Positions 57,857 to 59,825 of a stretch of 64,000 nucleotides of DNA are shown piece after piece. Both the position numbers and the translations under genes were made by a program. The DNA comes from Halothermothrix orenii H 168. Lineage in GTDB: Bacteria; Bacillota; Halanaerobiia; Halanaerobiales; Halothermotrichaceae. The notes under the pieces are model-generated. The model did no database searches and was not told the origin of the DNA. It was given only the letters and a program-made list of their open reading frames with translations. The first letter of the stretch is position 1. Every line of letters starts with the position of its first letter. The stretch lies in the NCBI RefSeq assembly GCF_000020485.1, contig NC_011899.1, forward strand, positions 1,768,501 through 1,832,500, given 5' to 3'.

Positions 57857-58705
57857 TTAACCAAGCAGCTGCAGAACAGCCTGAGGCTTAGCATTAGCCT
57901 GAGCCAGCATAGCAGTACCGGCCTGAACCAGAATCTGCTGCTTGGTGAACTTCATCATTTCAGCAGCCATATCAGCATCACGAATTCTTGATTCAGCAGC
58001 CTGCAGGTTTTCTTTGGTAACATTTAAGTTATTTACTGTATGCTCGAGTCTGTTCTGAACAGCACCAAGTTTAGCTCTCTGCTGAGAAATTTGGTTAATG
58101 GCAGTATCTATAGAATCAAGAGCAATTTCTGCATTAGATTGAGTAGAAATAGATATAGCAGCTAGATTGGCAACATCAGCAGTAGAACCTATAGCGTTAG
58201 CATTCATACTTGCAACGTTAACATTTATGGTCTGATTAGCATTAGGACCAATATGGAATATAGCAGTACCTCCTGCAGAAGCATCAAATGAGCCATTAAG
58301 AACCTGCATTTCGTTAAATTCTGTTTGACTACCTATACGATTAATTTCATTAATTAATTCAGTAACCTCAGCATTGAGGTGAGCACGGTCTTCATCTGTA
58401 TTGGTATCATTAGCAGCCTGTACAGCCAGTTCACGCATACGGTTTAACATGCTGTGTACTTCGGTTAAAGCACCCTCAGCACTCTGTACCAGGGAGATAC
58501 CGTCCTGAGCATTACGGATAGCTTGGTTTAAACCTGTAATTTGAGCACGCATCTTTTCTGAGATAGCCAGACCTGCAGCATCATCTGCAGCTCTATTGAT
58601 GCGGTAACCAGAAGAAAGTTTTTCCATGGTTTTACCCATCTTCACATCATTAAACTGCAGATTACGATAAGCATTCATAGCACTAATGTTGTGATTAATA
58701 ATCAT
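57857..58705 (-). CDS. fliC: Flagellin
   Basis: A 282-residue flagellin, the filament subunit. The D0/D1 N-terminus [19 protein letters not shown] and [27 protein letters not shown] (about residues 30-56) and the C-terminus with [43 protein letters not shown] are classical. The variable central part is minimal (about residues 135-200), similar to Bacillus Hag. Ser/Thr residues in that part, such as SISTQS, are possible Maf glycosylation sites. AGGAGG lies ten bases before the ATG within a CsrA-type leader. Confidence 0.97.
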
Positions 58706-58715
58706 AAAATATCAT

Positions 58716-58835
58716 CCTCCTTGATTTTTTTAGGGGCCTCCCTGCCCCATTTTAAGATTATATGTAGCCGGCCGACTACAAGTGTTGCTTGTATCAGCAA
58801 CAGATCAGCAACCTAAAAAATTTTTTAAGTTGCTG
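58716..58835 (-). promoter_or_regulatory. Structured flagellin leader with two CsrA-type sites
   Basis: Going to the ATG the leader has a 15-bp palindromic stem (58835-58806), GTTGCT/AGCAAC (58801-58784), GTAG/CTAC around CGGCCG (58779-58764), and a small GC stem GGGGC/GCCCC (58748-58733) whose loop is AGGGAG. A second AAGGA (58718-58722) overlaps the AGGAGG ribosome site. AGGGA in a hairpin loop plus ARGGA over the ribosome site is the arrangement by which CsrA represses hag in Bacillus. csrA and fliW are adjacent. Confidence 0.65.
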
Positions 58836-58901
58836 GTCCCTTGCTAATAAATTAATTATAAAAATAATATTTTAAAAAATATTTAATATGATTTTAAATA
58901 T

Positions 58902-59034
58902 TTATCGTTTCTTGTCTCGGCATATCACTTACTCACATATCACTTACTCATGTTCATTATTAATTATCGTAATAAAAATGACATTCTTGAACACTAATTT
59001 ACAGAAATGTATTACTGTTATAATAAATTATCGT
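58902..59034 (-). promoter_or_regulatory. Flagellin upstream region: three ACGATAA copies
   Basis: On the minus strand ACGATAA occurs at 59028-59034, 58964-58970 and 58902-58908, about 62-64 bases apart. CGATAA is the core of the sigma-28 -10 box. The matching TAAA 15 bases upstream is not perfect at any copy (TCAA at the middle one), so which, if any, is the fliC promoter remains open. Confidence 0.35.
58921..58950. repeat. Perfect 15-bp tandem repeat upstream of flagellin
   Basis: CATATCACTTACTCA is present twice without spacer (58921-58935 and 58936-58950). It lies between two of the ACGATAA copies. It could be a regulator binding pair or a simple slippage duplication. Confidence 0.6.
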
Positions 59035-59091
59035 CACTTTTCTGTATTATGCTATCCTATTCAGCTTATTTACTCATTTTCTGAGTTTTTT

Positions 59092-59351: not shown

Positions 59352-59798
59352 CTATTTCAGGGCCTGTGAAAATTTTTTGAATAATGGGTACTTGAGATCA
59401 TATTTATCACTATCCAGCACTACCTGTTTTCCAATATTCCCGGATAGATTAATAACGAGAGGTCCCTTTAAATTAACAGTGATGTCCTCAATATCGTCTG
59501 CAAAATTAACAATATTAAAAACCTGTACTATATCACCTTCACTGTAATTTAAAGCTTTTTTGTCAGCAGATGTCAGCTTTATTTTGTAATCAGTGAAAAA
59601 CTCATCTGCCTTTATAAGGATAAAGTAAAAATCATTTTCTTCTGTTGAATAAAGGGTATAAAAAGGGAGACTTTTATCCCAGCATGAAAGCAATAAATAT
59701 TTTTTATATTTAGGCAAACCCAGCAGGCCAGTTTTAAAGATAATTATATCTTCTGTATTAAACTCTAATTCCCCATATAATTCTGTATTAAGTTTCAT
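59352..59798 (-). CDS. fliW: Flagellar assembly factor FliW
   Basis: A 148-residue FliW with KLNTELYGELEFNTEDIIIFKTGLLGLPKYKKYLLL (residues 2-37, the family opening) and GPLVINLSGNIGKQVVLDSDKYDLKYPL near the C-terminus. It binds either flagellin or CsrA, coupling flagellin translation to export. ATG 59796-59798 with GGGAGG six bases upstream is chosen; the frame is open to 59822. Confidence 0.95.
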   Translation of the reverse strand: MKLNTELYGELEFNTEDIIIFKTGLLGLPKYKKYLLLSCWDKSLPFYTLYSTEENDFYFILIKADEFFTDYKIKLTSADKKALNYSEGDIVQVFNIVNFADDIEDITVNLKGPLVINLSGNIGKQVVLDSDKYDLKYPLFKKFSQALK

Positions 59799-59825
59799 AT
59801 TAACCTCCCTACTACCTCCCATAGA

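Follow-up and report, generated by a model that had tools for sequence, protein, structure and literature searches.

Putative CsrA sites and a conserved two-hairpin RNA in the flagellin leader of Halothermothrix orenii

Introduction

Flagellin is among the most abundant bacterial proteins, and its control by CsrA and FliW is a textbook partner switch. In Bacillus subtilis, the leader of the flagellin gene hag has two CsrA sites, BS1 (A51–A55) and BS2 (C75–G82) (PMC8523840, PMC7652899). In Halothermothrix orenii (published genome size, 2,578,146 bp; PMC2626281), the ORF listing of the window, the stretch of 64,000 nucleotides analysed here, gives the minus-strand gene order fliW, csrA, a gap of 386 nt, and hag. 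A sequence-only reading had proposed that this gap rebuilds the two-site CsrA arrangement of Bacillus hag within a much larger RNA structure. The locus raises the question of whether H. orenii hag carries the sites for such control and, if so, what the structured RNA upstream of them is.

Results

In terms of gene context, csrA and fliW are indeed the next genes upstream of hag, as that reading had stated (Table 1), and the start codon of hag is the ATG at 58705 on the minus strand. H. orenii CsrA has L4 and R44, which are RNA-binding residues in E. coli CsrA. The hag leader contains AAGGAGG at 58722–58716 (minus strand), of which the ARGGA part, 58722–58718, overlaps the Shine-Dalgarno sequence. 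A second ARGGA lies upstream in the loop of a GC stem, and the two are 21 nt apart from start to start with 16 nt between them, which bears out, on the minus strand, the expected stem with AGGGAG in its loop some 20 bases from a ribosome-site AAGGA.

Table 1. Features of the H. orenii flagellin locus, in window coordinates
Feature	Position	Strand	Basis
hag (flagellin), 282 aa	57857..58705	-	PF00669, E 1.5e-48; ORF
BS2, putative CsrA site overlapping Shine-Dalgarno, AUC[AAGGAG]GAU	58714..58725	-	sequence; small stem covaries
BS1, putative upstream CsrA site, hairpin GGGGC[AGGGAG]GCCCC	58733..58748	-	sequence, fold; stem covaries in 6/6 pairs
Flagellin-leader RNA element, divergent H. orenii copy	58749..58849	-	only R2 match in 64 kb, 28.9 bits, E 8.2e-5
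Hairpin B, UGUAG UCGGCCGG CUACA; loop holds palindrome CGGCCG (58774–58769)	58763..58780	-	fold, loop comparison
Alternative helix C of H. orenii, GUUGCU (58801–58796) with AGCAAC (58789–58784)	58784..58801	-	fold energy
Hairpin A: 9 bp, mismatch, 3 bp, mismatch, 13 bp, 4-nt loop	58792..58849	-	fold; same architecture in relatives
Candidate sigma-28 promoter, weak, TCAA-N15-TACGATAA	58964..58990	-	CGATAW box count
csrA, 81 aa	59092..59337	-	PF02599, E 2.5e-23; sequence
fliW, CsrA antagonist	59352..59822	-	PF02623, E 3.6e-33

Flagellin leaders were collected from 38 genomes of the order to which H. orenii belongs. Most of them have both an ARGGA-loop hairpin and AAGGA on the Shine-Dalgarno sequence, with the sites 21–49 nt apart in relatives (mostly 24–30). 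Among 17 distinct BS1 hairpins, all six stem pairs show two-sided change while the loop stays ARGGA, and the covariation score of 0.739 is reached by none of 500 shuffles (0.215 ± 0.046). The small stem of BS2 behaves likewise (0.418 versus 0.150 shuffled; 0 of 500). The alignment of relatives that the sequence-only reading had called for thus finds both sites and their stems kept, with covariation, across the order and the class. Of the 38 genomes, 22 have both csrA and fliW. One Halanaerobium (G011) has flagellin but lacks csrA and fliW, and its leader, a single one, carries no ARGGA and neither site; this leader is a natural control for the CsrA-site reading. Judged from sequence, the CsrA-hag reading of the H. 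orenii leader is well supported: the anatomy, the conserved covarying sites and the absence from G011 uphold the proposed match to two-site control of Bacillus hag.

The H. orenii hag leader is predicted to fold at −55.4 kcal/mol, compared with −31.9 ± 3.4 kcal/mol for dinucleotide shuffles (z = −7.0; 0 of 200). The structured region, first placed at 58716–58835, is present and reaches slightly beyond those limits, from 58849 to 58714. The 15-bp palindromic stem reported within it exists, its size having been underestimated: it is part of the larger hairpin A. Repeats expected to pair in more than one way can do so, with both GTTGCTG and AGCAAC occurring twice. Hairpin B, with its CGGCCG loop, lies inside the same region and had gone unnamed.

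To place this structure among relatives, 13 of their leaders were aligned without H. orenii, and hairpins A and B proved common to all of them. A covariance model built from this alignment (R1) finds its best match in the window at the H. orenii leader (18.9 bits). The same layout is present in flagellin leaders of the other families of the class (59 genomes), and in most of these leaders R1 locates it at the corresponding position. In a joint alignment of 29 sequences (A5), hairpins A and B have 31 pairs, of which 28 change on both sides; cells with such change number 187, versus 55 in shuffles, and the signal is lost when the partner strand is slid. Because A5 was aligned to the structure of R1, its pair counts lean in that direction, and an independent set aligned with MAFFT only, which holds fewer sequences, is the cleaner statement; it agrees with A5, with covariation in 15 pairs (0 of 500 shuffles). 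A further model, R2, also trained without H. orenii, has its sole match in the window at the homologous place in the H. orenii leader (Table 1).

Matches to this structured RNA of about 100 nt were found in 30 of the 59 class genomes, and by comparison of coordinates all 33 forward matches with E ≤3e-4 in class genomes lie directly upstream of flagellin genes. In a draw of 398 Bacillota genomes, matches were confined to members of the class (0 in the 383 others). At genome scale the order-trained R1 misses most of the wider class; restriction of the element to the order was nevertheless rejected, since class leaders read directly contain the layout. The class concerned is probably Halanaerobiia of GTDB. 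A core-string pattern scan of 84,980 genomes returned 18 stretches, 12 from Halanaerobiales and six from unrelated genomes that we take as chance; R1 matched none of the six. Rfam gave no match to the leader element above the gathering score, only sub-threshold ones with E of at least 0.19, and a literature search for a leader RNA of flagellin genes in these bacteria found no paper. The RNA upstream of BS1 and BS2 is a new, uncatalogued conserved family tied to flagellin genes.

The element does not accompany every flagellin gene. In several relatives (G002, G005, G007, G008) the leader is short and carries CsrA sites but no element, which means that flagellin can be expressed without it. Individual loci vary in other ways. 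In G024 (L086, 1501–1950) the leader is unusually long: more than 200 nt separate the element and a BS1-like hairpin from the flagellin ATG downstream. G016 (L087, 1500–2000) has two near-identical tandem flagellin starts with ribosome-site stretches and masked sequence between them, and the element is visible before the first start only. G435 (L145–L149) also has tandem flagellin genes; the later copies (L145–L147) have BS1 and BS2 without the element, which is found only at L149, where the BS1 position reads AAAGA rather than ARGGA.

A second fold of the element is predicted from pairing of hairpin A. Past hairpin B stands a segment (consensus AGUAACC) that is complementary to the 3′ strand of hairpin A (consensus GGUUACU); across 23 representatives, this downstream region gives better pairing with that strand than shuffled regions (helix C; Fisher p 1.7e-8, treating as independent representatives that, being relatives, are not strictly so). 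The controls gave p 0.45 for the 5′ strand of hairpin A and p 0.21 for the reversed segment. Where the segment changes, its partner changes as well (GAUC/GGUC in L087, GUUGCU/AGCAAC in L153, AUUGUUCA/UGAACAAU in L155); these partners were chosen by eye, and the Fisher test is for that reason the fair test of helix C. With an alternative partner available downstream of hairpin B, two folds of similar energy compete, lying within 2–9 kcal/mol of each other when the element is folded alone and within about 6 kcal/mol, in either direction, in full leaders. The H. orenii copy is divergent, in that the helix C partner stands before hairpin B and not after it, and the helix C fold, which excludes the base of hairpin A, lies 5.5 kcal/mol above the minimum-energy fold.

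The loop of hairpin B shows a further regularity. It usually has 9 nt, arranged as two bases, a 6-nt palindrome and one base; in H. orenii it has 8. A palindrome of at least 6 nt is present in 21 of 23 distinct loops, H. orenii included, versus 4.8 expected from shuffles, the loops of sequences outside A5 having been delimited by hand. The loop stays self-complementary as its letters change (CGGCCG, CGUACG, CCUAGG, GUGGCCAC). The exceptions are L165 (AUUAGCCUA) and L166, together with L167, whose UAAUUA is AU-only and off-register. The 3′ flank is A or G in most loops, and the 5′ flank is mixed.

We considered direct ways in which the element could act on expression. The idea that the switch masks the ribosome site was rejected, because the predicted accessibility of the Shine-Dalgarno sequence and AUG shows no consistent difference between the two folds. 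In H. orenii, UAAUCUUAAAAU may pair with the start-codon region in the predicted fold; pairing of this type is absent from the minimum-energy folds of relatives. A transcription attenuator was likewise rejected, as a search of the leader for an intrinsic terminator hairpin with a U-run found none. That the conserved stretch is a promoter element instead of an RNA was also rejected, given that the spacing of the conserved strings UAAA and GCCGA is too large for sigma-28 and the stems covary.

Three CGATAA boxes (GACGATAA, TACGATAA, AACGATAA) lie upstream of hag between 58902 and 59035 on the minus strand, those besides the TACGATAA box of the candidate promoter being at 59028–59035 and 58902–58909. 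The three CGATAW occurrences compare with about 0.12 expected per 250 nt, and the boxes probably represent one or more sigma-28 promoters. A sigma-28-like −10 box precedes the start of the element by 15–36 nt in several genomes. In Halanaerobium (L100, L104, L106, L110), the space between flgL and hag has lost csrA and fliW, the element directly adjoins the stop codon of flgL, and no CGATA[AT] box was found in the 150 nt upstream of it; such a layout would be consistent with hag being processed or stabilised separately from flgL. Between csrA and the H. orenii leader element there is also a near-perfect tandem repeat, GAGTAAGTGATATG in two copies (58920–58950, minus strand), possibly a regulatory site.

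Discussion

Taken together, we think it likely that the flagellin leader combines two modules, a pair of CsrA sites and a distal, conserved two-fold RNA that would tune flagellin mRNA after transcription. In the proximal module, BS1 and BS2 each carry ARGGA in the loop of a small hairpin, that of BS2 overlapping the Shine-Dalgarno sequence; a single CsrA dimer would bridge them and block ribosome binding. Export of flagellin would free FliW, which would then take CsrA off the leader. Binding and repression by CsrA at H. orenii hag are what we infer by analogy with B. subtilis. The distal module is a two-hairpin RNA specific to flagellin leaders of the class. In it, the 3′ strand of hairpin A is predicted to have two possible partners, the 5′ strand of that hairpin or, forming helix C, sequence past hairpin B (the AGCAAC directly before hairpin B in H. 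orenii), and hairpin B retains its self-complementary loop. The structure, the conservation and the two competing folds of this module are supported by the data above, and the expectation of extra control upstream of the CsrA sites finds structural support in a conserved RNA with its own conserved alternative pairing. The predicted shape suggests a two-state switch, possibly one that pairs with itself. Its function is most likely post-transcriptional tuning, which would work through stability or processing of the mRNA, possibly with loop-loop dimerisation, and not through direct masking of the ribosome site or transcription termination.

Several other explanations were weighed. It is very improbable that the ARGGA motifs serve just as purine-rich ribosome sites of the usual kind and are no targets of CsrA. 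AAGGAGG does make a normal Shine-Dalgarno sequence, but the ARGGA farther upstream plays no part in ribosome binding, lies within a covarying stem and is missing from the leader of the csrA-less genome. For the upstream part, a sizeable though lesser probability falls to a passive 5′ stabiliser or RNase-processing hairpin of an abundant mRNA, the sequence details of which would be irrelevant. The length of hairpin A (20–25 bp) and its position just past a sigma-28-like −10 box in several leaders agree with such a role, as does the Halanaerobium hairpin A that follows the flgL stop without a box, which is expected if it separates hag from flgL mRNA. A passive hairpin, however, would not preserve the 3′ strand UGGUUACURAAAC, its downstream partner UAACC and a self-complementary loop. 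A ligand-binding riboswitch of unknown class, in which helix C would be the P1-like stem in competition with the base of hairpin A, would account for mutually exclusive conserved helices of similar energy and for the conserved nucleotides. We regard it as improbable, as the element is associated with one gene family only, is restricted to one clade, shows no visible expression platform and matches no Rfam riboswitch.

The palindromic loop itself could be a kissing loop that pairs flagellin mRNAs, the dimer altering their translation or decay. The resemblance to RNA kissing dimers lies in the 9-nt loops with a hexamer that remains self-complementary through changes of letter. Against this stand the three exceptional leaders, the partial overlap of the palindrome with a stem extension (C1–G6), and the 8-nt loop of H. 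orenii, and the dimer is hypothetical; we hold this reading to be rather doubtful. More unlikely still is the stronger form in which the flagellin mRNAs of the class carry a retrovirus-like dimerisation hairpin, the exposure or geometry of which is set by the two-state leader fold. If true, flagellin output would depend on pairing between mRNAs, and hence on the concentration of flagellin mRNA, on top of CsrA-FliW control.

The preferred two-module account bears on known systems in different ways. As in the CsrA-FliW-hag system of B. subtilis, one ARGGA lies on the Shine-Dalgarno sequence and a second about 20–30 nt upstream, with csrA and fliW adjoining. Unlike in B. subtilis, both sites lie in covarying hexaloop hairpins, and in H. 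orenii they follow a conserved RNA of about 100 nt, which, to our knowledge and as we assume from its short leader, B. subtilis hag does not have. Selection on the two-site geometry is strong throughout the class and accompanied by compensatory change, and the geometry is joined by a second, uncatalogued RNA module tied to flagellin mRNA only. A flagellar riboswitch is known in the c-di-GMP-I element of the Clostridioides difficile flgB operon, which likewise lies in the leader of a flagellar gene and can fold in alternative ways; the present element differs in having no Rfam match and no terminator and in preceding flagellin genes only. The HIV-1 dimerisation initiation site and the kissing loop of oskar mRNA (PMC5874298, PMC7357161) differ in that the present loop stands in a bacterial 5′ leader, is not consistently flanked by purines on its 5′ side and measures 8 nt in H. 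orenii; its dimerisation is hypothetical. What they share with it is an mRNA hairpin loop containing a GC-rich hexamer that is self-complementary even as its letters change, and a true kissing loop would make flagellin a rare case of a dimerising bacterial mRNA.
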